From: Thraustochytrium sp. TN22
Lineage: Eukaryota; Sar; Bigyra; Thraustochytrida; Thraustochytriidae
Assembly (NCBI GenBank): GCA_013306675.1
Contig: JABLUY010000060.1
Coordinates: 92,465 to 156,464 of the forward strand
Length of the DNA: 64,000 nt
Direction of reading: 5' to 3'
Notes under the pieces: model-generated
Database searches by the model: none
Told to the model about the DNA's origin: nothing
Seen by the model: only the letters and a program-made list of their open reading frames with translations
Shown here: positions 1-58,559 of the stretch, one piece after another
How the letters are laid out: each line of letters opens with the position of its first letter
How positions within the stretch are numbered: the stretch's first letter is position 1
Translations under genes and position numbers: made by a program

Positions 1-3000
1 ACCTCGCACGCCTCGCCGTCGCGCCAGGGCGCCCGGTCCGGATTCGCCAGCGAGGACGATGGCGAGGATCTTAACGCGGAGGAAGACGCCATTGTGGCCG
101 CCTTCCGGGAGAGCGCGCCCGTCACCTTCAACAAGCTCTCGGTCGTTTTGCGCAAGGTCTCAGGCAAGCCGGTGCTCTCGTCGCAACGTAGGGAGCTCAC
201 CGCCTTCCAACGCGAGCTTGGTCTGCAGAGCCGGGACGAACTCTCCTTGGCCCAGTTCCGTGGCCTCTGCAACCGCTTGGGCATCGGCGGCGCGGAAGCC
301 GGTGGGCGGCTCAGCGCGTCCAGCCCGGCAGCATCCCGAGCCCAGCCACGGGCCGGCGGGATGATCCGCTCCTCTAGCGCCGGCTCGGTTGCTTCAACGG
401 CCTCTGGCGAGGTGGCGCGCATCCAGTATCTCTTCAACCGTGAGCGCAGGGTCACGCTCACCTCGGCGCCTGCACTCCTGCAGAAGCTCTCTGGGCGGCC
501 TCTCTCGACACAGCAGCGCGGGCGCCTCAGGGAGTTCTCCATGGCGCACGGCCTGGGGCCGCGAGACGCGCTCACGCTTGATCAGTTCGAGGACCTCTGC
601 AATAGCCTGCGCATCCTCGAGAGCGTCTCCTATGAGGACGGGTCGCCGGGCCAGGGCCGGCCCGCGGGCGATGCGCAGGCCTTTGCGCGTGGGGACCGTG
701 TCCGTGCCCGCTTCGGCGGCAAGTCGCGCTGGTACAATGGTCGCATCGTGCAGGTCAACCGTGACGGGTCCTACGACATCGACTACGACGACGGGGACGC
801 TGAGCAAGGCGTGGATCCGAGCTTGATCGAGCCCTTCGCTCAGGTCGAAGCCTCCGACCGCCGCAGCCGCTTCGCAGCGCGTGACTTGCAACGGCACGAG
901 GATGGCGGCGCAGCGGAAATGTCTTTTGAGGCCGGTGATCGAGTGGAAGCGCGCTTTGGGGGCAAGTCGCGCTGGTTTGCTGGAGTCATTCGCCGCGCAC
1001 GACGAGACGGCACCTTCGATATTGATTATGACGACGGCGATGCCGAGCAGGCCGTTCCCGAAACCCTGATCCGACCCGCGTCAGGAGCGCGGGCCGGCGG
1101 TCCAAGGTCACCCGGAGCTGCCTCACTCGGTGCCGCCTCCGAGGTCTCCACCGATGGCGACTCCGCGGCCCGGCAGGTCTTTGCACGCGCCGGCCGGGTC
1201 ACCCTTAACAACGTGGCCACGCTACTTCGCAAGGTCTCAGGCAAGCCGGTGCTTGGCTCGCAGCGCCGAGCCATCCAAGACTTCGCCAAGAACCGCGGTA
1301 TCGGGCCCCGCGATGCCTTCGACGAAGCGCTCTTCGAGGACCTTTGTGCGGAGCTCGGCATTGGGGCCCCGCCTTCAGCGGCTCGCGGCTCAAGCCCTAG
1401 ACGACCCGTCGAGAAGCCGGCAGGATCCTTGTCACGCGGGCAAGCAGTTGAAGCCCGCTATGGCGGCGGACGCCGGTGGTTCAAGGGTGTCGTGAGGCGT
1501 CTCCACGCGGACGGCTCCGTCGATATTGCCTATGAGGACGGCGACAGCGAGACCAAGGTGCGAGCAGACCTGGTCCGCGCCCTCGGTGGATCGGCCACAG
1601 ACGACATGGATCAGGGCTTCGACTCCCCGTCAAGATCGCAGGGGAGAGGTGGCGGCGGCGCCCGCGCGGGCCCCGGCCGCACCGCGGGCCCGGGGGAACA
1701 GGCCGCGCTCGAGGCCTACCATGGCACCGCGCGAGTGACACCTACCACAGTGGCCGGTGTGATGAGGACCATCACCGGCCGGCCCGTGCTTTCCTCGCAG
1801 CGGCAGCAGATCCTCCGTTTTACGCGCGAGCGCAGACTCGGTCCGCGCGACGTCTTGGATGAGCATACCTTCCTCGAGCTCTGTGAGGAGCTTGGCGTCT
1901 TGTCTGCGCCTCCGGGGCCAGACTCAGAAGCAGAGATGAGCCCAATGGAGACGCCTTCTTTTCGACGCGGCCAAAAGGTCGAGGCGCGCTTCGGCGGCAA
2001 GTCCAAGTGGTATGGCGGCACCATCACCCGCGTCAATGTCAATGGCAGCTATGACATCGCCTACGACGATGGCGACGCCGAGCGTGGGGTGCGCGCAGCG
2101 CTCATCAGGGCCAAGGACGGGGGCTTGGGGCGCTCGCCTCGTCGCACGTTCGAAGCCTCTGACGCCGAGGAGACTGACGCTGAGCAAGGCTTTCGACGCG
2201 GCCAAAAGGTGGAGGCGCGCTTCGGCGGCAAGTCCAAGTGGTATGGCGGAACCGTCACCCGCGTCAATGTCAATGGCAGCTATGACATCGCCTACGACGA
2301 CGGCGACGCCGAGCGCGGGGTGCGCGCGGCGCTCATCAGAGCCAAGGACGAGGGCGTGCGACGCTCGCCTCGTCGCACGTTCGAAGCCTCTGACGCCGAG
2401 GAAACTGACGCTGAGCAAGGCTTTCGGCGTGGACAGAAAGTTGAGGCGCGCTACGGCGGGAGGTCCAAGTGGTTCTCTGGCGTCATCAGCAGGGTCAATG
2501 TCAACGGCAGCTACGACATTGCCTACGACGACGGCGACGCCGAGCGCGGGGTGCGCGCGGCGCTCATCAGAGCCAAGGACGAGGGCGTGCGACGCTCGCC
2601 TCGTCGCACGTTCGAAGCCTCTGACGCCGAGGAGACTGACGCTGAGCAAGGCTTTCGACGCGGCCAAAAGGTGGAGGCGCGCTTCGGCGGCAAGTCCAAG
2701 TGGTATGGCGGAACCGTCACCCGCGTCAATGTCAATGGCAGCTATGACATCGCCTACGACGACGGCGACGCCGAGCGCGGGGTGCGCGCGGCGCTCATCA
2801 GAGCCAAGGACGAGGGCGTGCGACGCTCGCCTCGTCGCACGTTCGAAGCCTCCGATACCGAGGAGACTGACGCTGCACAGGGCTTTCGGCGTGGACAAAG
2901 GGTCGAGGCACGCTTCGGCGGCAAGTCCAAGTGGTACGGCGGCACCATTAGCCGAGTTAATGTCAACGGCAGCTACGACATCGCCTACGACGACGGCGAC

Positions 3001-6000
3001 GCCGAGCGCGGGGTGCGCGCGGCGCTGATCCGAGCCAAGGACGAGAGCGTGCGGCGCTCTCGCTCGCCCCGCCGTCCGCTCGACTCGGACGCCGAAGAGA
3101 CCGACGCTGAACAGGGCTTCCGACGCGGGCAAAAGGTCGAGGCACGCTTCGGCGGCAAGTCCAAGTGGTATGGCGGCACGATTGACCGGGTCAACGTGAA
3201 TGGCACCTATGACATCATGTACGACGACGGCGACAGCGAGCGAGGAGTGCGCACGGCAATGATCCGGGCCAGGGACGAGTCCACGCGCCGCTCTCGTTCG
3301 CCGCGGCGCCCTGTGGACTCGGACGCCGAGCAGAGCTTCCGGCGCGGGCAAAAGGTGGAGGCGCGCTTCGGTGGCAAGACGAAGTGGTATGGCGGGACCA
3401 TCAGCCGGGTCAACGTAAACGGCAGCTACGACATTGCTTACGACGACGGCGACAGCGAGCGAGGAGTGCGTGCGGGGCTGATTCGGGCTAAAGACGAAAG
3501 CACGCGCCGCTCTCGCTCGCCCCGCCGGCCGGTCGATTCTGACGCAGAGGAGACCGATGCTGAGCAGGGCTTCCGGCGTGGGCAAAAGGTGGAGGCGCGC
3601 TTCGGTGGCAAGTCAAAGTGGTACGGCGGTACCATCGCCCGCGTTAACGTTAACGGCACCTACGATATTTCGTATGACGACGGCGACTCGGAGCGTGGGG
3701 TCCGCGCGTCACTTATTCGCGCCAAGGACGAGGTCACACGCCGCTCGCGCTCGCGCTCGCCGCGGCGTCCCATCGATTCGGAGGCGGAAGAGACGGACGC
3801 CGAGCACGGCTTTCGCCGCGGGCAAAAGGTGGAAGCGCGATTCGGCGGCAAGTCCAAGTGGTATGCCGGAGTCATCAGCCGCGTCAACGTGAATGGCACC
3901 TACGACATCGCATACGACGATGGCGACGCAGAGCGCGGCATACGCGCAAGCCACATCCGCGCGGCCAAGGCAAAGGGACGGTCTCGAAGCCCGCGCCGGC
4001 GCCTGGATGCCCAGACCGAGGATCGACTGCGGTATCTCTACGAGCGCGAAAATGGCAACGTGACGCTGGGAACGGCGGGCGAGCTCTTGCACAAGGTGAT
4101 TGGGCGGGCACTCAGCTCGGACGAAAGGCGCGGTCTGAGTCAGTGGGCGCGAGAGGTGGGTATTCGACCACGCGCGGAGCTTGCCTTTGAGCAGCTTGTC
4201 GACGCTGGCGTCCGCATTGGCGTGCTTGGAGCGGACGCTGCAGAGAGGAGCGAAGACGCTGGCACGGAAGACGAGACTTTCCGCGTCGGAGATCGCGTGG
4301 AGGCCAAATTTCAGGGCGGAGCCAAATTCTTCAAAGGCACCGTGACTCGCGTGAACCGCGACGGCAGCTATGCAATCGACTACGACGACGGTGACCAGGA
4401 GCGGCGCGTTGCGGCAAACCTTATCCGTGGCGCGGGCAAAGCCAGCGCGCACCGACTGGCGGCGGGAGACCGCGTGGAAGCTCGCTTTGGAGGCGGCAAA
4501 CGCTGGTTCAAGGGCACGATTCGAGGCGTGCACCGTGACGGGAGTTGCGACATCGAATACGATGACGGCGACAAAGAGACGCGCGTGGCGAGCGCCATGG
4601 TGCGCGCGCTGGAGGATAGTGCCGCCTCAGGTCCCGCGCCTCGTGCCGGGGACCGCGTGGAGGCTCGCTTTGGCGGCGGTGACAAGTACTATGGTGGCGT
4701 GGTCCGCGCGGTCCATGGCGATGGCTCCTGCGACATCGACTATGACGATGGCGACAAGGAGAGGCGCGTTGCGCCAGCCCTGGTTCGAGCGGCGAAACGG
4801 GCCTCGCCACGATCCGGGAGCCATGGTCGCCCACACTCTCGGTCGCCCCGCCGGCGGCATGGGTCTCGCTCTCCGAGGTCTGCGCGTGACGAAAGCGAGC
4901 CAAGCAGCGCGGACGCTGCTGATTTCCGCGTTGGCCAGCGGGTGGAGGCGCGCTACGGTGGGGGCGAGGCCTGGTACAAAGGTGTCGTTTCAGTGGTGCA
5001 TCGGGATGGGAGTCTTTCCATCGACTACGACGACGGCGATAAGGAGAAGCGGGTGGCGCGCCGTCTGGTACGGGCCACCTCAGGCCGTCGCCGGTCGCCC
5101 AGAGCAGCTGACAGCGGTAGCAAGACCCTGGCCAAGAACGATCGTGTCAAGGCTCGCTTTAAGGGCGGCGCCGAGTTCTACGTGGGTAAGGTGGCCGCCG
5201 TGAACCGTGACGGTACCTATGCGGTGGCATTTGACGATGGCGACTATGACGAGCGCGTGCAAGCCAAGGACGTGCAGGCGCTGAGCTCAAACGGGTCCCC
5301 GCGGAAGCGCAACTCGCCCCGCGCAGCCTCAGGCGGCAGAGGCGAGGCGGACCGCTTCAGATACGTCTTTGAAAAAGAGGCCAAAGTGACACCGAGCAAC
5401 GCGCCCGAGGTTATCCGCAAGACCACTGGCACCGAGCTCAGCTCGGATCAGCGCAAGCAAGCGTACATGTTCTGCAAGCGCAAGGGCTTGCAGTCCTCCG
5501 ACACGCTCAGTTTTTCCCAGTACCGCGACATGTGCGTCGACCTGGGACTTATGAGCGACAGCAGCGGCACGGACGACGACATGGCCTCCTCGCGGTCAGC
5601 GCGTCGGCACCATCGCAGCCGGAGCAGGAGCCGGAGCCGGAGCCGGAGCCCGCGTGCACGCGCCGGCCGAAGTGGCCGAGACGAGGCGGGCGGCAGCTCC
5701 GAGGACTCAGCCGACTTCCACGTGGACGACCGTGTCCAAGGCCAATTTGGCACCGGGACCGAATGGTACTCCGGACGCGTGGTTCGGGTGCACCGCGACG
5801 GCTCCATTGACATCGACTACGACGATGGCGATAAGGAGCAGCGCAAGGAGCCCAACAAGGTGCGTCCGTTGGGTCGGTCCTCGCCGCGCCGTGGCGGGCG
5901 CTCGCCCCGCAAGGACAAGAGGGAGCGCACGATTTGGGACAAGATGAGGCGCGTGGCCGCCCGTGAAGCCGGCCGTGGGCACAGAGCTCCAAGCATGAAT

Positions 6001-9000
6001 GAGATTGACCGGGAGGAGGACCTGCGCAAGCGGTGCAAGGCTATTCTAGGGCCACGTCGCTTCAACGAGCTGAAGCGCGCCTTTGACAAGTACGACCGCG
6101 ACGGGAACGGCGAGCTGACCGAGGATGAGGTGGCCGAGACCTTTCGTGACATGGGCAAGTCCTTTCGGCGAAGCGACGTGCGTAAATGGATCCGTGAGGT
6201 CGACGCAGACCGGTCCGGCACGGTCGACCTGGTCGAATTCATTCAGGCGTACACGGGCATCTCCGTTGACCTTTCAGGCGACTCGGGCTCCGAAGATGAT
6301 TCAGACTCGCGAAGCTCTGCTTCGTCTGGCGCATCTCATTCCCGCCGACGCTCGAGGCGCGCGCCAAGCCGCGGCCGTAGTCGCAGCCGCAGTCGCGGCC
6401 GCAGCCGGCACGGACGGCACCGCGGTCGCAGCACGTCAAGCTCCGAGTCCTCGCTCTCGAGCGGCGAAGAGATGGTCGAGCGTAAGCTGTGGAAGAAGGA
6501 GGCCTGGGCCCAGCGTCTCGACGCGGATGCCATCGAGGCGGTCGAGGACGCCTTCGAGGAGTACTGCTCCAAGACGCGGCGAGGGCGGCGCATTCTGCCG
6601 GCCAAGTTTGTCCGTGTGGCGCTGGTCAGCACCGGCAAGGAGGCCTCCGTCTCGCAGGTGGGCGAGTATATGCGCGTCATGGGACTGAGCAAGGTTGACG
6701 CGCTCTCACTACCCGAATTTGCGCACGCCTACGCCTATATGTTCTGCGATCCCGAGCGGGACGAGTTCGGCCGCGCCGGCTCATACTACGATAAGCTGTG
6801 GGGCTCCGGTGCCGCGGGCCGTACCGGTGGCGCCTCCTTGAGCCAGCGCAGCTCCATGGGAGACGAAGAGACGATCGCGGCGCTGGCGGCGCAGGTCTTC
6901 CGCGCCGGCGAGTGGAAGGGTTCACGCGCCGAGAACGAGGCGCTCTTGCGCAAGCTTTCCCTAGGTCGTGCTCCTGAGGAGGTCGACGCCCTCCGGAAAC
7001 TGGTGCGCGCCTTTGAAGCGATGGACGAGGGGGAGACGGGGGAGATCGAGACCCAACGCACCGAAGATCTGCTGCGTCAAGCCGCACGCGACCCTGGTCC
7101 TCTCAAGGCTACCATTGAGGCATTTGGCAAGACCCGCGCGCGCACATCCCTTCCGGAGTTCCTCGCCGCCTTCGGCTTCGTTTTCGAGAGTATTACCGCA
7201 GAACCCACTGTTGCGGCCGCCTTTGCAATGCTTCGCCTCCACGCGACGCCGCAAGACACGCGCGTCGCGGCCGAAACCGTGCTGCACATCATCAACGAGG
7301 TGCTCGCGCGTCCTGACGACGCCAACCTTTGGCAAGTCTCGGTGCGCGAGAAGCGCTTCAGGGCCCGCATCGGCCGCCTGCGCGGCGGCATCGAGCTCAT
7401 GCACGCGGTCGGCTTCGCGCCCAGGCACAAGACGACTGCGGGCGCGCCAGTGCCAGGCTCGGGGCACGTGCAACTTCTCGCGCTCCGCGGGACCGCCGAC
7501 AAGCACGGCCGCACCATGGTCGAAGGCCTGCCCAAGGACACGCTCGCCACCCTTGCGGTCCGGCGAGAGGAGGTGGAGGCCGAGCTGCGGCAGCTCGAGG
7601 GCGGCGCGCCGACCGTCGGTGAGATCGTCCGCCTGTTGCAGCAGGAGTGCACCCTGGCGGAGCTGCGCACCGCGCTCGAGACGGCCCTTGGCATTGTCAA
7701 TGGCGTCCTACAGCACCCAAAGGACTCCCGCCGGTGGCGCGTTCGCGCTGCCAACCCGCAGTACCTGAAGAAGGTGGGCCAGTGGCAGCACGGACCGGCC
7801 CTCATGGAGGCTGTGGGTTTTGAGCGCCATAAGGAGCTCGACCTCCTCTGCCTGCGCGGCACTCAGACGCAATCCTCTACTAGCGTCGGTGCGGGCGCCG
7901 ACTTTAAGTTTCCTTCGCTCTCGCAAGAGGTCGAGTCCATGCTCTGGCGGCGCAAGGTCGACCTTGAAGCGGCGCTTCGCGCTCTTGAGGTCGCCATCAT
8001 CACGGGCAAGGCCACGGTGACCGAAGCTGGGCCGGCGTCCCACGCAAAGGAAGAGAACTCCTCCCAGTCGAGGTCACCGAGAGGTCGAAGGGCAGCTGTG
8101 GCTGGGGCGCCTCCCGTACGCGCGGGCGAATTGCCTCTCGAGGCCGGCTTGCAGGGTCGCTCTGCCACCGAGGAGCTTCAACTCAAGATGATTCGCCGCG
8201 CCTTCGCAGACCTGGACGTCGACGAAGACGGCTACATTACGGTACGCGACCTCAAGACAGCCTTCCAGACTAAGGGCATGGACACCAGTGACACGGCCGT
8301 GGCAGACTGGATCAGGGTCCGCGATATCGATCATGATGGGTGTGTCTCCCTCGCGGAGTTCACCGCCTCTTTCGCTCATATGGTACCGCCGCGAATCAGT
8401 GAGGGGGTTGCCAAGGGCTCGATGCATGCACAACGGTCGTCGGCGGCCCAAGGTGGTGGACCTGGGACGAGGGCTTCATCGCTCCCGGCGATGGTCGACG
8501 CGGTGTCCCCCGCGGCCGTCGCATTTGGCCTCGTACGCCTCTTCAGCACCAAAAAGCTCTGCGCCTCGATCATCTCAAATGCCGTGGCGCTGACCGACAA
8601 GGCCATCGACCATTGCGTTCGCGCTTCGCGTAGCGGCGCTGCGCCGGAGAAGCCCTTTGTATTGTCGCTCGAGGACGCTGAAAGGCTTTTTGGCCGTGCA
8701 AAGGGCGTCAAAGAGGTCTTCGCGGCGCTCGGCTGGTCGGTGGACGCGCGCCGAGGCACCTACGCATCCCGACTCGACGCGGATCAGGTCGCTGCGGTTC
8801 GTGCCAGCCTCCGGGAGCTCGAACTCCACCGCCGCGGCCTGGACTTTCTCGAGGTGGCCAACGCGAGAGCAGTTGGAAGCGCTGTCGCGGCACTTGGTCT
8901 CACCCCCTCTACCCAGGAACACCGCCCGTCCTCTTGGCTTGCCGCCATGGAGACGACGGCGCGATACCTTGGCAACCTCGTGCAAGACCCACAAGCGGCT

Positions 9001-11019
9001 CGTTTCCGGCGCATCAACATCCAGAATGATGCCTTTCGAAGGCGCATCGGGCGCATCGATGGCGGCATCGAGGTCCTCCTAGCAGCCGGCTTCCGGGAGA
9101 GCGAGGAGTCTGTGCTCGTTCTGCCGCCTAGCGCCAATATGGGCGAGGTCTCGGCGCGTCTCGTTGAGATCAAGGCTGGCATCGAGCCTCTCCGCGCGTC
9201 CGCCAAGGCAGAGCGCCTTTCGCAGCCTCCCGCTGCGACCGCTGCGACGACGAAGGAGCAGCGCGCCGGCGCGGCCAACGCGCAGAGCCGCAAGGCTGAC
9301 AAGGGTGGTAAGCAGGGCAAGCCGGGCAAGTCGGGCAAGGACGAGCCGCGTCAAGCAAGCCTCGCCTCGTCGCGCATCGATGCATTGCGCATCCGGGAGC
9401 TGGAGGCCCAGGTTCATGTCCTCAAGGACAAGCTCGAACATACTCGCGAGGCCTCACGATCTCAGACAGGTGCCGCTGGAGGGCATTCGCAGTCGCTCGG
9501 CCGCAGCACAAGGGGTTCAAGGCGAGGCCCGGACCCAGCAGACGACGCAGACTGGGCTGCAGAGGCCCTCTTGGCCGAATCGAAGCGAGGCGTTTCGCTC
9601 AAACGCGGCAGTGGACGCGGCGGAGGCGCTCTTTCCGGCGCCAACCAAGTAGGCGACGCCGGCGGCTTCTCGTCGCGAAGGTCCAGGACATCGAGCGCCC
9701 GGACTCGCACGTCTCGGGGTGTGACCCGAGGCGAGAGCCGGTTGCAAGTCGAGTCCGTGGAGGGCTTCCGTCGCGGGGATATGGTAGTCGTGGGCCGCCC
9801 TGGGGATCGGCAGCAGGAGGCGCGCTTTGTGGTGGGTATTAGCGACGGCGGATTGATCGTGGACCGCGCGCTAGACTACAACCAGGAGGAAGGCGCGCCG
9901 GTGGTGGAAACCAAGGCGAATCGGTCGGAACAGCGCGGCTTCCAGCGCCGTGAGACTGCTAGCTTCATCACGTCGGCGATCTTGCTCCCACTCGTAGACA
10001 CCTGCGCGGGCATGGGCGAGGCTATCGTACACGCGCGCGATCTTCAACGGCGATTCGAGGAGCGTCCGCTGCCTAGGCCCGTCTTCAGAAGCCAGCTAGA
10101 GTTCCTGCGGGTGCTCGGTGAGGACTCACGTGTCGTTGCGGCTTCCACCCTCGCGCGTGGCCGCGTCGCGGGGCCGCCCGAGGTCGCCATGGCCACCCGC
10201 CTTGTGCATGACCAGGCCACTGCCAGCCTGCACGTGCTGGGGCGCGGAAACACTCTGCATCGCTGGACTGCGGCTCTGTCCCCGCTCGAGCTGCGGGACC
10301 TCTTCGAGCTCATGGATGCCGACGGAGACGGCAAAGTCACTCGCGAGGAGGTGGTCGCCGCGGCGAGCAGTGAGCCCCGCATTGCGGCACTTCTGGGTTC
10401 TAACTGCTTCCGAGCCATCGGTGGAGGCGGCGACCGCGGCACGTCGCTGGCGCTTGGGGCCATCTTTGGCGGCAACCTGAGCGCCGGTCACGGGGCGCAG
10501 CAGCAACAGCACGCGCAGCGCGGCGTGCGATGGGAGGATTTCGCAAGCTTCTTCAGCGCCGGGGCGCGCCGCGCCGCTCGTGTGCGCGCTCAGGCGGAGT
10601 GGTGGGCGCAGGTCCAACGCTGGCGCGATGCGACATGGGCTGAGGGACTTGACGAGGATGACATCTGCGAGCTCCATGTCGTCTTCTCCCTGTTCGATTC
10701 GGACGCGGACGGGAAGCTGACCTGGGACGAGTGGCAATCCGCCTGCCTCAGCATGGATGGTACCAAGCCGCCTTGCACCGGTTGGCCCGACCAGGCCTCC
10801 GCAACCACACGGCCTTTGGATAGCACGGACCAAGTCGAGAAGAGCATCGTGGATGATCCACGGAGCCGCAAGGTCGGTTTCGCTGACTTTTGTCGGCTCC
10901 GTGCTGCGCTCGCGCGCAAGTTCGACGGCCCACGGCGCCACTTCGGGGCGTCTCGCGGTGGACTGGGCGTTCTTACGCTCATCCGCCGCCATCTACGTCG
11001 CGTGTTTCACCAGCAGGTA

Positions 11020-11072
<53 letters not shown>

Positions 11073-14000
11073 GACCGCACTTTCGGGCGAGTCCTTCTTG
11101 CAAGCGGCTTTGGAGGACGAGGCCCTCGCCGGCCTCATGCACGTGCCCCTGCACGACAGCAGCTCCAAGAACGATCAGCTTCCAACGACGCTAGAGACAC
11201 GGCTCCGTGATTGGGGCCGCCGTGTATCACAACGCTCCGCGTCCATCGCCTGGGCAGACGTAGCCGCGTGCGTGCAGCTCCTGCACGGCGCAGAGGAAGC
11301 GCCCGCGGTCGACACGGATGTGTCTGTGCCGCTCTTTTCCGCAAGCGCGCCGGAGCGCTGTGTTTTCGAAAGCCGCAGTGGTTCGACGGTGTACGAAGTG
11401 GTTGCGGATCAGGAGCTACAGCTCTTCTTTTTGCTCCTCACAAGCGGCGTGCTTGAAGTGTGGGCAAGCGACGGAACCCGCATGCTCGCCAGCTCAAGGG
11501 TGCTGGACCGGGAGTCCGAGGCGCGGCGCACACTGGCGTCCGGTTCGCGCGCCTTAAAGGTGCTACAATTCGATGAGCAATCCTCCCTCCTCGTCATGTG
11601 CACAGCGGCAGTTGACGGTGAACTGCGGCTCTTTGAATCGGTGAGCCTGCGGGAGCTGCGTCGCGTCAAACTCCGGCCACAGGCCAAGGCTGGCGCGGAG
11701 GTTGGCGCCGTCGTGCAGGCGGCCGTCTTCTCGTCGCGCTGGGATGCGGTCTTTTGCTCGGTGGCGGGCGGCGTCGCAGGTGTCCAAGTGCTCTGCGCAA
11801 GGAGCGGTAAGGTGCTCGCGGTCCTGCCCGAGGCCGGCGAGGCCCCTTGTCTGTTGCATGTGCCACAGGCCGCATTTCTGGTCGCTGGTGACAGCAAGGG
11901 CAGGCTGCAGTTCTGGGACCTGGCCGAGCAGATGCGCTGGCGTCAGCTCGCACAGGAGCGGACGCAGAGCGACGCCGGCTTGCACAAGGTGCTGCGGCGC
12001 CTGCAGCAAGCCGTGGCGGAGCACGCCGCGCTTGAGAACGTGGGACGGCCCGCCCGGGTGCTTTCCCGGGGGAACGACACAGCTGTCAACGTCCGCTACA
12101 TGGACGACCTGGGCGGCACGGAGCTGGGTGTTGCTCTCTTCCGGCTACAGCCTCGCGACGATGCCTCGTCGCAGGCCGCCGTGGGCGGCGCTCTTTATCG
12201 TGAGGGCGCCCTCGTACAGGTGCACGGCCAGCGCCGCTTGCGCGTACTCGTCTCGCGCCTGTACGCGGGACGGCCTGGCGTAGTCGACGTGCGCGTGCTC
12301 GAAACAGGCGAGGGCTGGGCGGCCGTGTCCTTGCCGGAAGCGTCGCTCAACGCCGGCATTGGCGACGAGGTAGAAATGCCCATCCCGGCAGAGCGCGTCG
12401 ACATGGAGGCCGTCTTCACTCGCCTCGACGAGAATGGCGATGGAATCGTCTCGCTGGACGAGCTGAAGCGCATCATGCAGCAGCGGCTGCGCCTGGATGT
12501 TCACGAGGAGGACGTGGCACGTGTTTTTGAGCACATCGACGTGAACGGGGACGGCCAGATCTCGCTACGCGAGCTGTCGAGCGCACTCGGCGCGCCTGCC
12601 GCGGCCTCAGCCGCACGCGAGCGAGGGCGCCGGCAGCCGCCCCGTGAGCTGGTGTGCCGGCACACGGAGCGGCTGCCTCCGGGTCGCCGCGAAGGCACGA
12701 CAGGCGTGCCTATCGTGGCGCTCGAGTACCTGCCCGACGCTGGCTTGGTCTGCGCGGCCGGGGCGCTCGGGTCAATTTACTTGGTGGACCCGCTGGCGCG
12801 GCGCTTCCGCCTCACGCACCCGGTCTTCGCAGAGCTCACCTCTGAGGGCACGCAAGAGTTTGCGCAGGCCTCGGAGCCGTACGCGTGCGTGCACGTGATT
12901 CAGGCGCCACCTGGGGCGACCGTGACACAGCTCACGCGTGTGCAGTTCGAAGCCAGCGCCGGGGCCAGCGCAGGCGCCTGCATTGTGAACGAAGCGCAGG
13001 CGCAGGCCGCCCGCAACGCGGACGCGCGCCTTACGGAGGGTCTCGCGCGCGACGATCGCCTCGTGCGAGGCTTCGCATATGTACTCGCGAGCGGGGAGGT
13101 GTTCGCGGTAGAGGCCTCCGGGTTCGACGAGCGGATGGTGGAGCTCCAAGACCGAGCTCTATTTGGTGTTCACGGCGCCATGACATGCACGGGCGGCTGG
13201 CGGACCGGCACCGATGACTTGCGCGAGGCCTTCCGGCTCCGCGACCGCGTGCGGCGCGTGATTTACTTTGCGTCCAAGGAGGCGCGGGCCGTCTCAGAGG
13301 TGCGTGCTTCGCTCGAGCGCGGCCAGCTTGCGCTGGGCGACGCGCAGGCCATGGCGCGCGCCATGGAGAGCCCGCAGGTGCTACTCTTCCCGTTCTACCA
13401 GCACGGAGATGGGCCCGACAACGTGCTACCGGGCCCGGCGGCAGCCTCGACAACAGCTGCCGTGCTGCGCGAGACCGGCGTGGTGACTCGTCGCCTGGAC
13501 CGCAGCGTGTACGAGGTGGCCTACGACGCCTCGCGTACGCTGCTCAAGCTGCCGCGACACCTGCTCGAGGCGCTGGAGGACGGGTCGCAGACGCGGGCGC
13601 TCAGAACCGGCGAGCAGGTGCGCATCCTGCGCGGCAGCCTGCAGGCTCCCGCGGAGGGGAACGCCCTGGCGGCCGAGCTGCGCCTCGGCGCGGATATGGG
13701 TGCCCCGAGCCTTGGTGCGATACGACGGTCGGCCGGCGTGGAGTTCCTCGCGGCGCTCCTCGTGAACCCGGACGGCGGCCAAAGCGTGGCGCTGTGGTCC
13801 GTGGACCGCGGATGCGTGCTGACGCCGGCACGAGACCTTGGGCTTCCGCTCGAAAAGAGAGCGCTCACCGAGGCACTCTTGGCGCGCGACCGCTGGCGGG
13901 CCATGGCTCACCAGAGCGTGCGCACGTCGGCAGCGCTGGCGCGCGTGCAGACGACAAGCTTTCGAGAGGCGGAATTGGAGCTGCTCGAGGAGATCGGTGC

Positions 14001-17000
14001 GTCCATGCGCGGCGTCTCGCTCGCGGTGGACCGCGGCCGTGTCGAAACGGCCGCGAAGCAGGCCTTCCGTCTCGCACTGCGACTCCCAGCGAGATGGAGC
14101 GCGCGCTTCCGCCACATGCAAACGTGCTACAGAGAGCTCTTCCGCCGGACTGCCGAGTCCGGCCGGTGCTCCGCGTTGGCACTTGTCGACGCGGTTAACG
14201 CGGCGCTTGTCACCGGAGATGAGGCGTCTACACTGGGTCTGCGCCTGGGTCTCGGCGTGGGCCTCGCTCGCTTTTCGAGCGCACTCACAAGGCAAGGCCG
14301 TCGCGAGACCGTCTCGGAGCGCGACCTCCTGGAGTGTGTCGCGAATCTGCGCCATGAGGTGCTCGCGCCTGCGGAGGCCTTCCACGTGCTGCAGCAGGTT
14401 CACATCCTTGACGAAGCGACCTGGTCCGCCGACGACATCGTCGCTCTCTGCGGCCAGCTGGGCGCGACGGACGCGAGCCTCGCCCAAGAGCACAAGAGCG
14501 CCCATGATGAAGGCGACCGTAGCCAGGCGGTGTTGGCCTTCTCTGAGGCCGGCTTTGGTCTGCTGGCAAGCCGTATGGACCCGTTCTGGGCCGTGCGCGA
14601 CGCAATGGGCGCGGTCCACGTGCAGGGGGCACGTGCAGAGTCCTGCCCCACGCACGCGAGCAAGCTGCACAGACTTGCGGCACTGGCCGTGGCCGAGGAC
14701 TGTGCGGCCGGCCTGCAGGCCTGCGAAGCCCAGCTCAACAGCCTCGCGGGCGCTTTGCGTAAGCGGGCTGTGAAGCTCGTCGAGGCCGTCGTGGCGGACC
14801 GCGTGGAGGTCTGCCAGGGCCCAGACGACGGAGGAAGAGCAGGAGGAGGAGGAGGAGGAGGAGACAGTAAAGAAGACGACCGAGACAACTCGGTGGACGA
14901 GGAGTTGAGGCGCTGCACGGAGCACGCGAGGGACCTTGCTCTCGAGGCGCTCGATAGCCCGGCACCCATCCGCTTCAAGGCCGAGCGAGTGATTCCGGCG
15001 CTGAGCATGCAGCTACGCGTTGTCTCGCGCGCGCACGCGAGTCTCGCAGGCCGTAGCTCGCGGGAGGTCAGTCTCTATGTGCACACCGTCGCCGCGAGCA
15101 AGCTTGGGCGCGTGCAGATCAGTGACGGCCAGCCGTACGAGGCGCACTTGGAGCGTGAGGCTGCCATGTACCGCCTGCTGCAGGAGGACAATGTGGCTCC
15201 GGTGCTGCTCGATAACGCCCGCGCGGCCCTCGCAGATGGCGCCGCGAGTCGCGGTGAGGAAGGGGCCAAAACCCTCGTCCTGGCCGGTCTACCCGGGTGG
15301 AGAACCCTGCGCGAGTGCCTCGACACGCACGGATACCTGGGCGACCCGGCAGCGGCGCCCCTCCTCGGACTGTGGGCGTCGCAGCTCGTGGACCTTGCGC
15401 GGCGACTGCACGCCAAGGGCATTCTTCTGCGTGGTCCGCGCCCACGCCAGGTGCTCGTGTCGCCCTGTGGACGCTTCGTGCGGCTGGCCTCTCTTGCAAC
15501 GGCTGGCTTGCTGTCGATGGACGGTGACGCCGAGGGCACGATGGTCTGTGGACCCGATCTCGGGGCCTTGGTTCCCCCGGACGAGCGCGGCTACGATCCA
15601 CGTGCCGACGTCCAGGGCGGCCGGCAGCCGGGTCCGGAATACGACACGTACTGTATCGGTTGTCTGCTGCTCGAGGCCATGACCGGAGCGGCGCCTCCTG
15701 CAGATCCCGAGCTCATCCCCTTCGGCTGCTTCAGCACACAAGTGGGCGGGCACTCCGCTACGGCGAGCGCCACACGCGGTAGCCTCGTGGTGGGCTCACG
15801 TGGCGAGCTGCAGCTGCAAGCGCCCTCTCAACAAGGGGGCGAGCAGGACACCAGGTTGGCTCGGCGGCACGCCGAGCTCTCGGCGCTCGTGGGATGGCTT
15901 CTTGCAGGCAGCTTCGCTGCAACGTCCGAAATGGAGCACGAGCAGCCTGCGCAGGTCGCTGTGCTTGACTTTGCTGTGCGGTGCGTACAGCACGAACCCG
16001 GAGCTAGGGCGCAAGCCACAGACCTGGCGCCCTGGGTGTCCGGCTACACCTCGCGGACCGCCTTTGCAGACGCAAGCCAGGCGGCGCGCGTGTGGACCGC
16101 GCAGAAGCGCGTGAGCATGGACGTAAGAGAGGGCATTGCCGTGCCTCTGGAAATCCTCGCCGCGCAGGCGCACTTGCTGCAGTCGCCATCGACCAAGGAT
16201 GCGCAAGAGGAGGCGACGTCCGTGGACCCGCGTCTTCTTCTGGATGCTGTGGACGCGGTGGTGGAGTGCTGCTGCGGCAACAGAGCGAGCACCGCAATTG
16301 CGGAGAGCTCGCCTTCTGCGTGCGACGAGGTAGTGGGCATGGGCGCGCTGCAGACGCTTGCGAAGTTGGCGCTCCGCGCCTATGCGGACGACCTTCGCCA
16401 GGGCTCCACGTCGACGGCGGCGGTGCCTGAGGATCCGGTTCGCGTACGCCTAATGCGCCGCGTCGTCCAGGCCTTCCAAACCATCGCTGCGGAGCTTGGG
16501 CGTCCGGGCCCTGCCTCGCCCATGGCGGCCCATGCTGGCCCCTTGCTGGAGGCAATGACCCTGCTGTACTGCGGGCGCTTCGAAGCCTCGCTGGATACCG
16601 CAGAGATCAACGAGTGCGTGTGGACCCCGGAGCTGGAGCGACTCGTAGCACCGCTCGTGCGGCAGCTCGTGACCGAGGAGGGCAGCGGGAATGCACGGTA
16701 CCCCGCGCTTCGCGAGTGGCTCGCACGCGGCGAAGTGACGCGGTCCGCCACGTACTACGGCGAGATGCTCAGCTTGGGCCACAGCCTCGCGCAGCTCGCA
16801 ACGTCAAGGCGCAAGTCGCGGTCGCGCATCGTTGCGGGCCGTGTGGTGCTCTCGATGCTGCGGTCGCCCGAGCCCCAGCACGTGCAGCTGTGCGTTGACC
16901 TCGGCGTTGCGGAGCACGCGGCAGCGCTGGTCGGCGACGAGGAGGAGGAGCTGGCCTTGCTAGCGCTGGAGTGCGCCCAGGTGGCGCTGGAGGCCATCAC

Positions 17001-19764
17001 TAGTGAGGCGAGCGCGGCCATCCTGGATGGGGCGCTTCTCGCTTCGCGGCGGCGGCTCGCGCTCGCTTTCGCGTCGGTTCCATTTGTGGCGGCGCTTGTC
17101 CGGCGCGTGGTGGAAGGGGGAGAGCGAACGCGCGAGGCTGCTCTTGCAGTGTTGGCGCTTCTCGTGCAGTGTGGGGAGGCAATGACGGGCGCGTGGCAGG
17201 TTTGCGACGTCTTTCCCGCCCTCCTGCATGCTCTGCGCAAGTCCCACGCTCAAGCCGCGGCGCGAGTTTGCGCTGCGGTCGCGGAGCATGGCAGCAGGGA
17301 CCTGCTCGACCTGCTCCTCGCCTTCCCAAGCCTCGTGCAGCTTGTACAGGAAAACTTCGGGGTTGAGATACCGCGTATGATGGCGTTCGAAGGGCCTGGC
17401 GCGACCCGCGCCGCGCTCGAGCAGCTCATGCTGGACGCCAAGGAAGCCGGCCTCGTGGAGGAAGTGCGCGCGCAGCTAGGTCGCGTTCGCGTGGCACTCA
17501 CCGTGGACTTCGAGCCCTCTGACGCTACATTGGAAGAGGCATACATCGCCTTGCTCCGCCTGGTCTTTGAGGAGTGGGTGACGAGCTTCTGGGATGCCAC
17601 GCTGAACAGCGCAGCGCTCGCCAAGGACCGTGCGCCTGTGCTGCACATGGCTTTCGAGATTGTGCGGCAGATGGCTCGCGGCGTAGAGCCAACGTTGGCC
17701 GCGCCCAAGGTCGCCCCGCTCCTGAGCGAGTCCGGTTGCCTGGCGACGGTGGCTCGCGTAGCCGCAGAGGACTTCGTGGATCTTTCCAGCGCCGGCGCAG
17801 AGGCCCTCAACCTGCAGAGCGTCGCGCTCGACTTTCTCCTGTGTGATTGCACGCGTGACCCGGTACTCTTGGACGCTGCTCTAGACGCTAGCGTTTCGGA
17901 TGCTGTTGCCGGCGGCATCGCGGGAGCGCTTCGCTCGTACCTGAGCGCCAACGAGGTGCTCCTGCGAAGCGCAGTGCGAGACGTGGAGATGCACGAGCCG
18001 ATCCTCTCCACGTGGCCTCGTCGCAGCGCGAGCCTGCGCCGCGGATGGCACAGCTTGCTTCTGGCCTGCGCGGCGCGCCCGGCCCTGCAGGAGGCGCTCG
18101 TTCACGTTGGCCTCGTCGAGGAGCTTCTTTGCGGCCTGCTGAGGGACACGACACAGCTCGAGGTAGCGCCGCATCTGGTGCGGCTGCGCAAAGATCTTGG
18201 CTCAGTTTGGCTTGGGTCAATGCCGCTGCGGCTGGACGGTATCAGCATGCTCAAGGCCCTCTGCGAGCGCGTCGCGTCCCTAGGCACGCTTCGCGCGGAG
18301 TTAGTCGCCCTTGCCAAGACGCACCAGGTCGTCGCGAACCAGGCGGAGACGGTCCGGAGGGGCGGGCCGCATGCGCGAGCCGCTCGGGCCGCGCTGCTGG
18401 CGCTCCAGAGCGCCAACGACCCCGACCTGGACGCCCTGATCCTTCAAGAAGTCAACCTAGGGCTCCGCCTGGATGAAGGCGACGATCTTCTGGAGGATCC
18501 CTTGCAGGATCGCTCCAGAACCGCATCGCACAGCTGGCGCCACGACGAGGCGGAGTCCAAGAGCGTGGCGACGGACGGCCCGATGCGCCGACCCGCGCTC
18601 CGTGTCCGGCCTAGCCCTCCGCCGGACGTCGCCAAGCCAGAGTCGCCGAGTCCAAGGGCACGGGAGCTCTTCAAGACCTACGCGAAGCGCCGAGGCGGCG
18701 GCGGCCAGCTCGCGCTCGGACCGCCCGAGCTGCAGCGGCTTCTCAGGGACCTACACGCGGAGTCGACTGCGGTGCGCGCCGGTACGAAGGCCGTGCAAGG
18801 TGGAGGCTCCATGGGACTGGCAGATTTTGCCTGCTTTTATGCACAACACCTTCAAAAAGAAGACCACGTCGGCGCGAGCGCGAGGGGGGGCGACGGCCAT
18901 GACGCCAGTGAAGTAGACGCCGCGGCGAAGATCTTTGCCCGCTTTGATCCGGCAGGCACGGGTAGACTGCCATCTCGTCGCGCGCAGGCCGCCCTGAGCG
19001 CGCTGCCTGGCGTGCGGGCCCTGGTCGACGGCGAGCTCGAGTCCATCGCGCGCTCCCTGGACCTGGGTTCCACGGCGGCATTCTCATTGCAAGACTTTCG
19101 GCTACTGGTTCAGGCGTGCGAGAGTCGCCCCGCCGCAACCTCGAGCCCGCGGCCCGGTGCTGGCGTTGCGGGCATTCCAGACCCGCTTCGCGAGACCTTT
19201 ATGGCGTACAGCGACGCTACGAATGTCATCAGCGGCGCCAACCGCGTGCGCGCCTTCTTGGCGGAGTACATGGCTCTTTCGGGTACCACGGGCCGTCCGC
19301 CGCCAGCGACACGCGTCCAGGCATGGCTCGTGGAGCGCGCCGGCCAGGCCCCGCACGGTGCCGCGCTGGACTGGGACCAGGCCTCCGACCTGGCAGCCTG
19401 GGCTCAGGCCGGTGGGGCCGAGAGTGGCCAGCGACCTGCACGAGCACCCGTGCCGGCGCTGGCTGCTGAGCCCGTGGCCGCCAGATACTCCTTCGAAGAG
19501 GCGGCCAAGTCGCTGCCGCGCAAGCTGGCCCGAAAGCTGGGCACCGACAAGCTGGAGGGCCTCTGGCGCGCGTTTTGCCGCTACGGCGGCGGCCGCGACG
19601 GCCTGATCCGCTTCATCAACCTGCGCGCCGCCTTTAACGAGATGGGCCGCACCCAGGTCCCCGACGCGGACCTGTACCAGTGGATTCGTGCTCGTGACCC
19701 CGACACCCGCGGTGCTGTCTCCTTCTCAAACTTCTGCGCCGCCTTCGCCGCGGCCGCTCAGTGA
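1..19764 (+). CDS. Giant modular tudor-like / EF-hand / PUB-like / pseudokinase-like protein, 5' partial
   Basis: The frame is open from the first base of the window to a TGA at 19762, giving at least 6,587 residues, and its true start lies upstream; there is no ATG near base 94, only a GTG inside a copy of the helical module. Order of parts: alternating helical modules and tudor-like modules to about base 5,870; Arg/Ser-rich linkers; an EF-hand pair near 6,090; PUB-like domains (7,207-9,105); EF-hands near 8,200, 10,310 and 10,690; a 14-Gln run; propeller-like strands (11,395-11,950); an EF-hand pair at 12,415-12,580; a degenerate kinase-like segment (14,980-15,990); long helical, possibly ARM-like, sequence to 18,400; and EF-hand-like pairs at the C-terminus. 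Eight EF loops look canonical. I do not recognise a named gene. A Ca2+-responsive scaffold is an inference. Frame and extent are certain, function is not. Confidence 0.93.
91..5556 (+). repeat. Six copies of an unnamed ~65-residue helical module
   Basis: Copies lie near bases 91-300, 415-630, 1165-1365, 1700-1900, 4020-4236 and 5350-5556, each next to one or more tudor-like modules. Shared features are V-T-x(4)-A-x-[LV]-[LMI]-[RHQ]-K (near the start), then [ST]-G-[KRT]-x-[LV]-[SG]-[ST]-x-[QE]-R, then G-[LI]-x-x-[RS]-[DA]-x-[LF] and an ending of F-x-[DE]-[LM]-C-x-x-L-[GR]-[IVL]. The layout of four short helices resembles an EF-hand pair that has lost its Ca2+ loops, but no loop residues remain, so I leave it unnamed. 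Confidence 0.7.
682..5873 (+). repeat. Eighteen tudor-like (YDDGD) modules in the giant protein
   Basis: Each module is about 52 residues and follows the pattern G-[DQ]-x-V-[EKR]-A-[RK]-[FY]-x-G-G-x-x-x-[WFY]-[YF]-x-G-x-[VI], then [VN]-x-[DN]-G-[ST]-x-x-I-x-[YF]-[DE]-D-G-D, then a basic residue and a hydrophobic pair before [LIM]-[IV]-R. Modules start near bases 682, 925, 1432, 1960, 2191, 2422, 2653, 2884, 3118, 3337, 3571, 3811, 4282, 4459, 4642, 4927, 5131 and 5716. The pattern of short strands with aromatic residues and the acidic turn fits a small SH3-like barrel of the Tudor/Agenet kind; this is a family-level inference from the motif. Linkers between modules are acidic or carry R-S-P-R-R motifs, which resemble SR-protein tails and phosphorylation sites. 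Confidence 0.85.
1960..3965 (+). repeat. Near-identical 231-bp coding tandem array
   Basis: Nine modules follow each other with a DNA period of 231 bp for the first five starts (1960, 2191, 2422, 2653, 2884) and then 234, 219, 234 and 240 bp. All period changes are multiples of three. The first five copies are close to identical in DNA, including silent sites, while the later copies have a different linker with extra R-S repeats. The array therefore grew by recent unequal crossing-over. Because of the strong codon bias the complementary strand is also open here for about 550 codons; that is a by-product. Confidence 0.92.
7207..9105 (+). other. Cluster of PUB-like domains inside the giant protein
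   Basis: Three segments (7207-7425, 7651-7830, 8929-9102) share the PUB pattern: a helix with [IL]-[IVG]-N-x-[VL]-[LV]-x-x-P-x-[DA], then W/F-R-x-[IV]-[RN]-x-x-N or an equivalent, a basic [RK]-[IV] turn, and a closing helix G-[GP]-[IA]-[EL]-[LV]-[LM]-x-A-[VA]-G-F. A fourth, weaker segment (8551-8742) ends in F-A-A-L-G-W. PUB domains of peptide:N-glycanase, UBXD1 and HOIP bind the tails of p97/VCP or related peptides, so a link to the p97 system is possible. An EF-hand pair with canonical loops sits between the second domain and the weak one. Confidence 0.7.
11029..11070 (+). repeat. CAG tract encoding 14 Gln
   Basis: A pure run of fourteen in-frame CAG codons lies just downstream of an EF-hand region of the giant protein. 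It is one of four CAG/CTG tracts in coding regions of this window. Confidence 0.97.
11395..11950 (+). other. Beta-propeller (WD-like) segment inside the giant protein
   Basis: Short strand-rich units of about 40-50 residues recur, with hydrophobic-strand starts and endings such as L-E-V-W-A-S-D-G, L-R-L-F-E-S, V-Q-V-L-C-A-R-S-G and L-Q-F-W-D-L-A. This is the cadence of WD40 blades, although the full GH...WD signature is not kept. Further blade-like strands appear near 12,710-12,830 beyond an EF-hand pair, so the propeller may be interrupted. The call rests on pattern only. Confidence 0.45.
14829..14864 (+). repeat. GGA-rich tract encoding poly-Gly
   Basis: A purine-rich GGA tract encodes Gly residues and is followed by an acidic stretch, just before the kinase-like segment. 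It probably acts as a flexible linker. Confidence 0.85.
14980..15990 (+). other. Degenerate protein-kinase-like (pseudokinase) segment of the giant protein
   Basis: The segment keeps the outline of a kinase: an N-lobe-like stretch with a helix E-x-E-R-E-A-A-M-Y-R-L-L, a helix ending L-H-A-K-G-I at 15,406, a catalytic-loop equivalent L-R-G-P-R-P-R-Q-V-L-V, an activation-start equivalent R-L-A-S-L, and Y-D-T-Y-C-I-G-C-L-L-L-E-A-M-T-G matching the helix-F region of kinases. The HRD Asp, the loop Asn and the DFG Asp are all replaced, so catalysis is not expected. It is best read as a pseudokinase, used for binding. Confidence is moderate because the N-lobe is weak. Confidence 0.6.
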
Positions 19765-20539
19765 GTCAGGCCACAACTTGATAGCTAACAAATGAACGTT
19801 GTGACGCTTGTCTGGATGGCGGCTCGCGCCCATGCTCGCCACATCTCTCGTGAGTGATGCCTGCTCGACCTTGTCGCTCTTCTGCAACAACGGGACGTGG
19901 CTTCTAGAATTTCTGTGCAGGCCAAGGTTAGCTACTAAGACTTCAGAAGCACGGCTGGCGCCCAGAAGGCTCTTGATGAGCAAGAACGAACGTTGTGACG
20001 CTTGTCTGGATGGCGGCTCGCGCCCATGCTCGCCACATCTCTCGTGAGTGATGCCTGCTCGACCTTGTCGCTCTTCTGCAACAACGGGACGCGGCTTCTA
20101 GAATTTCTGTGCAGGCAGAGGTTAGCTAAGACTTCAGAAGTACGGCTGCCAGTGGCGCCCAGAAAGCTCTCGATCGTTCTCATCAAGCCAGCGACGCCGT
20201 CCCGCCGTTTGACTGGCCAGATGGCTGGTCGCTTCCAGTTCAGACCGCTCGAGACGCCTTCAAGGTGCGGTCGCTTCGCAAGGCTATCGTCCAGCCTGGT
20301 CCAGGTCGATGTGCGAGGCCTGGGTCGGGTCGTCATCGTTTGTTGATCGGGAGACTCGCCGCGACTTGAAACGCAGACTTGAATCGCGCCGGCGCGGCGG
20401 GCGAGCGAGCGGCTGAGCGAACACGCGCGGCGGCGGCAGCGGCGGCGGCGGCGGCGGCGGCTGCGACTGAGCGAGCCGAGGCTCGGCCAGAGCGGTGACT
20501 CCTGGCGAGGTCGGCATCGGCATCGGCATCGGCTTCGAG
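19765..20539. other. Spacer between the giant gene and the saposin-like gene
   Basis: The spacer holds the 3' flank of the giant gene, a 194-bp tandem duplication (19794-20180), and then the presumed promoter and 5' UTR of the next gene. The last part contains GGC-rich DNA (about 20427-20461) and a short CGGCAT repeat (about 20511-20531). The frame of the next gene is open upstream to a GTG at 20495, but no ATG is present before 20540. I see no RNA gene that I can support. Confidence 0.7.
19794..20180. repeat. 194-bp direct tandem duplication
   Basis: Copy 1 starts at 19794 and copy 2 at 19988. The first 104 bases of the two copies are identical. After that there are a few substitutions, a 3-bp indel near 19935 and a 6-bp insertion in copy 2 near 20150. 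Both indels are multiples of three, so the frames on either strand run through. It is either a recent duplication of non-coding DNA 3' of the giant gene or a piece of a small unrecognised coding unit. Confidence 0.93.
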
Positions 20540-21663: not shown

Positions 21664-39156
<17,493 letters not shown>

Positions 39157-54146: not shown

Positions 54147-56114
54147 ATGCGGCGGGTGTCGGCGCCGCTGCCGCGCAAGCGCAAGACGCCGACCTGGCTA
54201 GAGCTGCTGGAGGCGCGCGACGATGTGTCGCTCACGCAGGCTCTGGAGACGGACGTGCTGGGCGTGCGCACGCGGGTGGGGCCGGACCAGGAGACGCTGT
54301 ACATCGCGGCGGTGCGACTAGGGGCGCGCAGCGCGGCGCAGGTGCTGCTGCGGCATGGCGCGGACATCAACGAGGAGGACCGCCTTGGCAACACGGCGCT
54401 GCACATGGCGTGCGCGACGCGGGATTCCCTCACTGCCAGGGACCTCATCGACAGCGGTGCCCACCTGGACAAACAGGGCAAGTTTGAAATGACGCCGCTC
54501 ATGCTGGCGTGCCGCGAGTGCCTGTATGACGTGGCCTTGCTGCTCGTGGAGCGCGGCGCCGATCTCAACCTTCAGAACCAGTATGGGTGGAACGCCTGCA
54601 TGTTCGCGGCGCGCTACCACAGTGCGAATAATCAGGTGCTCGTGAGCATGATCGAGCGCGGCGCCGACCTCTCGCTCAAGAACGACGACAGCTGGACGCT
54701 CCTCATGTTCTGCCTGCGCCACAACCACCTGGCCGTAGTGCCAATGCTGCTGGAGCGCAACGCGAATCTAGAAGGCGTGAATCAGGACAAGTGGAACCCG
54801 CTGCACCTGGCGCTGCGGTACGCTACGGGCGACGTGGCGCTTACCGTGCTGGAGGCCTTCTCCAGGAGCCCAACCGCCGACCTCAACGCCAAGAACGTTG
54901 ACCAGTGGACCGCGCTTGCCTTCGCCATCCGCTATGGCCATGCCGATGTCGCCAAGCGCCTGATTGAGCTCGGGTGCGACCTGGAGGCACAGAACATCGA
55001 CCACTGGCGGCCCATTCACTTCGCCACGCGCTACGAGCAGGAGCCCATCGCGCACCTCCTGCTGGACCACCACGTTGACGTCAACACCAAGAACCAAGAC
55101 GGCTGGACGCCGCTCATCATCGCCTGTCGCAACAAGCAGCCCAGTGTCGCCATCCGCATGGTGCAGGAAGGGTGCAACGTCAACTTGCAGAACAACAACG
55201 GCTGGACCGCACTCATGATGGCCTCCCGCAACCGAGAGCTCGAGATTGCCAACGCCATTCTTGAGCATCCCGGCGTCGACATCAATCTCAAGGAGGAGGA
55301 CGGCTGGACCGCCTTGCACTTCGCCTGCGCCTATGCGCAGAGCGCGCTCACGCGCTCCCTCCTCGAGCACGGCGCTGGCGTGCATGCTCTCACCGCGGAC
55401 GCCTGGACGCCACTCATGCTCGCATGCCAGGGCCCCATCGAGGACGGCAACGAGCAAGTCGACCTGCTCGAGTGCATCATTGCCTGCTACGAGTTTGGCG
55501 CCGACCTCATGCACAGGTGCGCGCAGCCCACCGTCTCCACGGCCCTCGAGCTCTGCGTCAAGTACAACCAGAACGAATCCAAGGCCTTTCTTGACTTCGC
55601 CATCTCCAGCAAGATCAAGCACATCCTCATTGACCGCCTCCATCTCTCGCGCCGCGTACTCGTCAACTTTTGGCGCGGAGGCTTCACCACCGCCCAAGCC
55701 TGTCTGCAGCTCTCCGCGGCCGACCTTCGCTCGCTCGGCGTTGCCGAGAACATGCACGCCAGCATTAAGACCTTCTTTGAGGAGGTCGCACAGGCCGACG
55801 CCGCGCAGGACTCCAGCTCCGACATGCTCGACGCCGTCAAGCGCCTCTCGCAGCGCCTCTCGCAGCGCGTGCGCGTCAGTGCCGGCCGCTCGCGCGACGG
55901 TGAGGGCGGTGTCAACCTTCCCGATCACGGCGCTGCCCTCGGCGGCCGTGCCGCGGGCGCTGCGGCAGCTGCCGTTGCCGGCGCGCGCACCAGCTCGCTG
56001 CGCCGTATCTTCATGCGTCACAGCGCCCGCCGGCAGCCCGCCGGTGAGCTTGTTGCCGTCGTCATGGAGGACGACGACGCCGGCCACCACCCCCACAACA
56101 ACGGGGGCAACTGA
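54147..56114 (+). CDS. Ankyrin-repeat protein with SAM-like tail
   Basis: The protein has 655 residues, and the start ATG has A at -3. A basic N-terminus leads into about 11 ankyrin repeats (roughly 48-450). Most repeats carry an aromatic version of the usual turn: D-x-W-T-P-L, D-G-W-T-A-L, D-K-W-N-P-L, and V-N-x-x-N-x-[DN] between units. After the repeats, residues about 495-548 (F-T-T-A-Q-A-C-L-Q-L-S-A-A-D-L-R-S-L-G-V) resemble half of a SAM domain. The C-terminal 100 residues are Ala/Arg/Ser-rich and end in an Asp/His/Asn stretch. Ankyrin repeats mediate protein binding. No enzymatic domain is present, so its partner and pathway stay unknown. Confidence 0.88.
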   Translation: MRRVSAPLPRKRKTPTWLELLEARDDVSLTQALETDVLGVRTRVGPDQETLYIAAVRLGARSAAQVLLRHGADINEEDRLGNTALHMACATRDSLTARDLIDSGAHLDKQGKFEMTPLMLACRECLYDVALLLVERGADLNLQNQYGWNACMFAARYHSANNQVLVSMIERGADLSLKNDDSWTLLMFCLRHNHLAVVPMLLERNANLEGVNQDKWNPLHLALRYATGDVALTVLEAFSRSPTADLNAKNVDQWTALAFAIRYGHADVAKRLIELGCDLEAQNIDHWRPIHFATRYEQEPIAHLLLDHHVDVNTKNQDGWTPLIIACRNKQPSVAIRMVQEGCNVNLQNNNGWTALMMASRNRELEIANAILEHPGVDINLKEEDGWTALHFACAYAQSALTRSLLEHGAGVHALTADAWTPLMLACQGPIEDGNEQVDLLECIIACYEFGADLMHRCAQPTVSTALELCVKYNQNESKAFLDFAISSKIKHILIDRLHLSRRVLVNFWRGGFTTAQACLQLSAADLRSLGVAENMHASIKTFFEEVAQADAAQDSSSDMLDAVKRLSQRLSQRVRVSAGRSRDGEGGVNLPDHGAALGGRAAGAAAAAVAGARTSSLRRIFMRHSARRQPAGELVAVVMEDDDAGHHPHNNGGN

Positions 56115-58506: not shown

Positions 58507-58559
<53 letters not shown>

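Follow-up and report, generated by a model that had tools for sequence, protein, structure and literature searches.

A giant protein of tudor modules, EF-hands, PUB domains and a pseudokinase encoded in one reading frame of Thraustochytrium sp. TN22

Results

A giant multi-domain protein is encoded at the start of a 64,000-nucleotide stretch of the Thraustochytrium sp. TN22 genome (the window; assembly GCA_013306675.1, contig JABLUY010000060.1, positions 92,465 to 156,464). This confirms the observation of an earlier note on the same DNA, which understated the protein at its N-terminus. Known binding modules are combined here at extreme scale in one polypeptide, in a genome in which EF-hand and tudor modules recur. 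All parts of the protein that were assigned are of known kinds; among modular scaffolds of the types already known, it is an extreme case. We give a probability of about one half to the reading that it acts as a calcium-responsive multivalent scaffold.

Reading frame and extent of the gene

The frame is free of stops from base 1 of the window to the stop codon that ends at position 19764 (1..19764, forward strand). From base composition alone, the giant frame would stay open with a probability of about 1.6e-71. In the same interval, 1-19764, the remaining five frames contain 72, 92, 95, 167 and 168 stops, and the G+C content by codon position is fairly even along the giant frame. The open frame and this coding signature together indicate that the stretch is coding throughout.

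The earlier note had reported an uninterrupted frame of at least 6,587 codons, which holds, and had proposed that the gene be extended to its true start. We place this start at an ATG that lies 627 bases before the window and is the earliest start codon following an upstream in-frame stop. The extension (L002:9374-10000) adds 209 codons, giving 6,796 codons in total, and brings in an N-terminal C2 domain (PF00168) that scored over the Pfam cut-off (E 1.4e-8). A comparison of the C2 domain with PDB sequences gave no significant match.

Tudor array and helical modules

The protein carries 18 tudor modules of about 47 residues each (691..5865, +), joined by linkers rich in charged residues and in Arg/Ser. 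All 18 copies were found by our own profile, which was built from 15 of them and is circular for those 15. Pfam Tudor_5, which is independent of this profile, matched 17 stretches (E 2.5e-89), and the 18 tudor-like modules described earlier are thereby upheld.

A structure model of the fourth helical module (see below) with the tudor that follows it, made from an alignment of 19 stretches of the window, reached a mean pLDDT of 80. The tudor copy in this model has five strands (block pLDDT about 78-88) arranged as an SH3-like barrel, so that the fold expected in the earlier note was obtained for the one copy modelled. In a Foldseek search with the tudor model, the tudors of PHF20, MTF2, PHF20L1 and PHF1 came out on top, PHF20 with the best E value (7e-4; TMt 0.87, rmsd 1.5). 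Two of the 1369 matches had an E of 0.001 or better, and the best 50 were mostly tudors.

Passages of PMC5974088 name Trp1495, Tyr1502, Phe1519, Asp1521 and Tyr1523 as the methyl-lysine cage of 53BP1, and state that the Y1523A variant retains H4K20me2 binding. By a residue mapping of our own, based on a 53BP1 alignment that is not significant alone (E 0.39), the first four positions are aromatic, aromatic, aromatic and Asp in all 18 copies: Trp/Tyr/Phe/Asp of 53BP1 becomes Phe or Tyr, Tyr or Phe, Tyr or Phe, and Asp. Extending this alignment by one further residue places the fifth position (Tyr1523), and there all 18 copies have Asp. Because of this Asp and the non-significant alignment, methyl-lysine reading by these tudors is unproven. 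The modelled copy shares its SH3-like barrel with the tudors of 53BP1, PHF20 and PHF1. In contrast to those proteins, the giant protein has 18 tudor copies with Asp at the fifth cage position, and no chromatin enzyme was detected in it.

The nine tudor copies that are most alike gave a pS of 0.455 and a pN of 0.081 (ratio 0.18). The ratio was 0.48 over all 18 tudor copies and 0.74 over five helical modules, with silent differences near saturation in both sets (0.61 and 0.64, respectively). Since the nine copies differ mostly at silent sites, their protein sequence is under constraint, and these copies are held by protein-level selection, unless gene conversion contributes too.

Six helical modules of about 71 residues each, which were absent from the earlier list of domains, lie before and among the tudors on the forward strand (module 1, 76..288; module 2, 406..621; module 3, 1153..1365; module 4, 1690..1905; module 5, 4012..4230; module 6, 5341..5556). 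A search with a profile of the six found no seventh. The module in the structure model consists of four helices. Comparison of the helical-module profile with an EF-hand profile gave a weak match (7.6%, P 0.005, 47 columns aligned). Perhaps the six modules, module 1 included, are degenerate EF-hand pairs.

EF-hands

Eight canonical 12-residue EF-hand loops were recognized by pattern, and EF-hands also scored above the Pfam cut-off, in agreement with the earlier note. Six of the loops form three adjacent pairs (6061..6255, 8188..8367 and 12400..12576, +), the last of which follows the WD40-like stretch described below. The other two loops are 127 residues apart (10315..10731, +). Another pair, at the C-terminus (19567..19746, +), is degenerate and lies below the curated Pfam cut-off (E 4e-4). 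Judged from the sequence, calcium binding by the EF-hands and peptide reading by the tudors are plausible.

PUB domains

The PUB-like domains of the earlier note also stand. Pfam recognized three stretches, with a joint E of 1.7e-31, over the cut-off. Taken singly, PUB1 (7258..7431, +) and PUB2 (7660..7863, +) were just under the curated cut-off. PUB3 (8941..9141, +) was closest to the PUB domain of N-glycanase (E 4.6e-8).

According to passages of PMC6995525, the p97-binding pocket of PUB domains consists of YxxN(x)9Y plus K/RxxN, and p97 binding is abolished in PNGase that lacks the pocket Arg. In passages of PMC4017264, the Asn of the second pocket motif of HOIP is called a cornerstone residue, and the HOIP PUB domain is described as binding an internal motif of OTULIN. 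An alignment with the PUB of an N-glycanase gave the pocket residues of the giant protein. At the five pocket positions PUB3 reads Y, N, F (in place of Y), N (in place of R) and N; the tyrosine pocket is largely kept, and the Arg that clamps the p97 C-terminus is replaced by Asn. PUB2 has retained the R and N of the second motif (RxxN), and Y, N and Y of the first are absent. In PUB1 the pocket residues are lost (0 of 5 in the aligned columns). Both PUB1 and PUB2 carry an Asn one residue ahead of the first pocket Asn position. The whole p97-binding motif is present in none of the three domains.

By analogy with HOIP and its internal OTULIN motif, the motif that PUB3 recognizes may likewise be internal and not C-terminal. 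The giant protein resembles PNGase, UBXD1 and HOIP in having a PUB domain, with most of the tyrosine pocket retained in PUB3. It differs from these proteins in its three PUB copies, each short of the full motif, and in that its Pfam lists contain no transglutaminase, UBX or RBR domain.

Pseudokinase, WD40-like stretch and C-terminal part

A pseudokinase is located at 15133..15705 (+). As a template we aligned 15 kinases of the same genome, out of 16 loci cut from 135 matches. The stretch matched this template by hhalign with 94.8% and a P of 5e-8; the match covers 160 columns (41-200 of the 256 in the template). Two other stretches of the giant protein gave 0.1 and 0.2%. The stretch had no match in Pfam. 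A phmmer search against PDB gave a best E of 0.072, which is not significant, with kinases in 17 of the 18 rows. The catalytic motifs are lost: LRGPRPRQ stands at the HRDLKPEN position (HRD to LRG) and SLA at the DFG position. The profile comparison and the lost motifs bear out the earlier description of a dead kinase. Modelled without relatives, the structure of the kinase region came out too poor to use (mean pLDDT 38).

The propeller proposed in the earlier note fared less well. One WD40-like blade, in a stretch at 11500..12300 (+), matched a profile of 11 repeats weakly (hhalign, 8.5%, P 0.004). The second propeller-like stretch gave 0.3%, with 0.2% for another control stretch, and does not support the claim. 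Searched against PDB sequences, the WD40-like stretch reached a best E of 0.02, which is insignificant; all 16 rows were WD40 proteins by name, and we take them to belong to the WD40 family from these names. A WD40 propeller in the giant protein is possible.

The stretch after the kinase matched nothing in Pfam (16501-18699) or among PDB sequences (16321-18600), and helical repeats are therefore not supported there. In ULK4 and STK36 a pseudokinase or kinase is followed by helical repeats. The giant protein is similar in that a dead kinase precedes a long C-terminal stretch, but this stretch is without any sequence match.

Relatives in the genome and in the literature

The genome that we searched comprises 37.9 Mb in 453 contigs. 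Tudor_5 had at least 54 matches on 11 contigs (C104, 19; C410, 15; C66, nine; C95, four; and seven single ones), and PUB had 15 matches on 12 contigs. A frame of 2,340 codons on C66 contains both EF-hands and tudors. The frame on C104 (2,696 codons; L031, L029) gave 19 tudor hits, and inspection by eye also showed stretches rich in RS and an N-terminus resembling a degenerate EF-hand; two pieces of it that were scanned gave no EF-hand under E 0.001. Within the window, the frame at 56457-62888 (+) has three EF-hand-pair stretches and a weak tudor (Pfam E 9.6e-5, below the cut-off). In this frame, about 37 kb from the giant gene, BLASTP also indicated a second C-terminal tudor-like stretch, and an IQ-like motif was seen by eye. 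A portion of a 7,373-codon frame (C332:26000-31000, L078) contains two tudor modules.

The proteins of C66, C104 and 56457-62888 share tudor copies of the same type with the giant protein, and those of C66 and 56457-62888 also have EF-hands in the same frame. In contrast to the giant protein, the scanned parts of these frames gave no PUB or kinase, and 56457-62888 has only one weak Pfam tudor. Because EF-hands with tudors recur on C66 and, with a weak tudor, at 56457-62888, the theme is not unique. EF-hand plus tudor is a theme of this genome, to which PUB, pseudokinase and C2 appear to have been added in the giant protein.

No second frame with the full domain combination was found in the parts of the genome examined. 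For residues 3834-6587, the genome yielded no relative except EF-hands (6 matches; 17 of 31 candidates scored). Viral contigs contained no relatives of PUB3, the pseudokinase stretch or a two-tudor stretch, and prokaryote contigs no relative of the second propeller-like stretch. The earlier note knew of no described protein with this combination. Full-text literature searches likewise turned up no paper that seems to describe it; a described or annotated orthologue may nonetheless exist among eukaryotic proteins. The EF-hand and tudor part of the combination is shared within the genome. The main text of an ectoplasmic-network proteome study (PMC12221091) contains neither 'EF-hand' nor 'tudor', and passages of PMC3019232 and PMC8864356 describe nothing that resembles the giant protein.

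Discussion

A proposed calcium-responsive scaffold and its alternatives

Scaffolding, calcium control, partners and location of the protein are what we infer from these modules. A predicted single gene would encode a single-exon giant scaffold, in which the C2 domain and the tudor array would supply many weak binding sites. The tudors would bind methylated or otherwise modified peptides. The eight canonical EF-hand loops lie between binding parts, and calcium might alter the spacing or exposure of the sites. For PUB3, the expected ligand would be a PIM-type motif with a tyrosine in some partner, and the dead kinase, the possible propeller and the unassigned C-terminal part would serve as protein-binding platforms. 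If calcium gates the array, this would be a new way of controlling the multivalent reading of modified proteins. A bolder version, which we regard as a long shot, is a lineage-specific class of multivalent readers that combine EF-hands with arrays of as many as about 19 tudor modules and whose binding of methylated clients is gated by calcium. In the giant protein, PUB3 would link such an array to a partner with an internal PIM motif, from quality control or a deubiquitinase.

A flagellar or basal-body protein, acting as a calcium-responsive axonemal or centriolar scaffold, is a tentative alternative that we consider rather unlikely. Thraustochytrid zoospores swim, and cilia contain proteins that combine EF-hands with WD40 repeats as well as pseudokinases or kinases with helical repeats, such as ULK4 and STK36. 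The domain order (EF-hand, WD40-like, EF-hand, pseudokinase) would suit such a protein, as would the scarcity of genome relatives other than EF-hands from residue 3834 on. Weak hints before PUB1 point the same way (myosin light chain, E 0.92; centrin, E 3). However, the best 60 of 368 PDB matches to 10201-13980 were all calmodulin-like or EF-hand proteins, with no other axonemal protein among them, and the giant protein contains PUB domains, which to our knowledge are atypical of cilia. Passages of PMC8358228 report tudor domains on Arl13, a ciliary GTPase, in two stramenopiles, the thraustochytrid Aurantiochytrium limacinum and Phytophthora sojae. Because of these tudors on a ciliary protein, we rated the ciliary reading up, and the nuclear and p97 readings below down.

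A nuclear scaffold for methylated histones or splicing proteins, bound through the tudors with their RS-rich linkers, seems improbable. The tudor model was closest to the chromatin readers PHF20, MTF2 and PHF1, four of the five cage positions are kept, and RS/SR dipeptides number 80 in window residues 1-2,160 and 63 in the other 4,427 (counts without a shuffle control). Against this stands the N-terminal C2 domain, often a membrane module. Moreover, no nuclear enzyme or DNA-binding family was over the Pfam cut-off (a dsDNA_bind match had an E of 0.25), and the G+C-rich composition may partly explain the R/S-rich linkers.

We attach still less probability to a p97/CDC48 adaptor, in which the PUB domains dock the C-terminal tail of p97 and the tudors bring modified clients. 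Three PUB domains are present, PUB3 with Tyr, Asn, Phe for Tyr and the second Asn, and PUB2 with RxxN, but a complete pocket motif is found in none of them. Nor did the genome offer a clear CDC48 tail: the AAA genes on C44 (the best TIGR01243 match) and C170 have C-termini without a p97-type tail, and a weak search with the tail pattern gave 4 hits over the genome versus 6 for the reversed control. CDC48 was without certain identification, as none of 27 matches was above the family cut-off; the true CDC48 gene may be split by introns. A single CDC48_N match was rejected as CDC48, since its sequence reads as NSF. The earlier note had linked the PUB domains to p97 and proposed a calcium-sensing scaffold for a p97-type machine. 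Of this, the three PUB domains stand and the EF-hand loops and tudor cages fit a scaffold, whereas the p97 link is weak.

Finally, that two or more genes were joined through an accident of annotation or assembly is very improbable: the N- and C-terminal halves differ strongly and introns seem present in the genome (the CDC48-type match on C170 is in three pieces), but the frame has no stop and a fairly even codon-position G+C throughout, and frames of 4,522, 5,691 and 7,373 codons were found elsewhere in the genome.

Neighbouring genes

Directly after the stop codon of the giant gene lies a 194-base tandem duplication (19794-20148; 1.8 copies, 95% matches). It is followed by a single frame of 5,830 codons on the reverse strand (21664-39156), convergent with the giant gene, that encodes a Tra1/TRRAP homologue with Tra1 central and ring regions, FAT, a PI3/4-kinase-type domain and a weak FATC. 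Elsewhere in the genome, a 3,044-codon frame carries 10 evenly spaced ACP domains, a row that we take to be typical of thraustochytrid PUFA synthases. Further genes in the window, all on the forward strand, encode a sodium/calcium exchanger (43895-45991), an ABC transporter (49750-52089) and an ankyrin-repeat protein (54147-56114).
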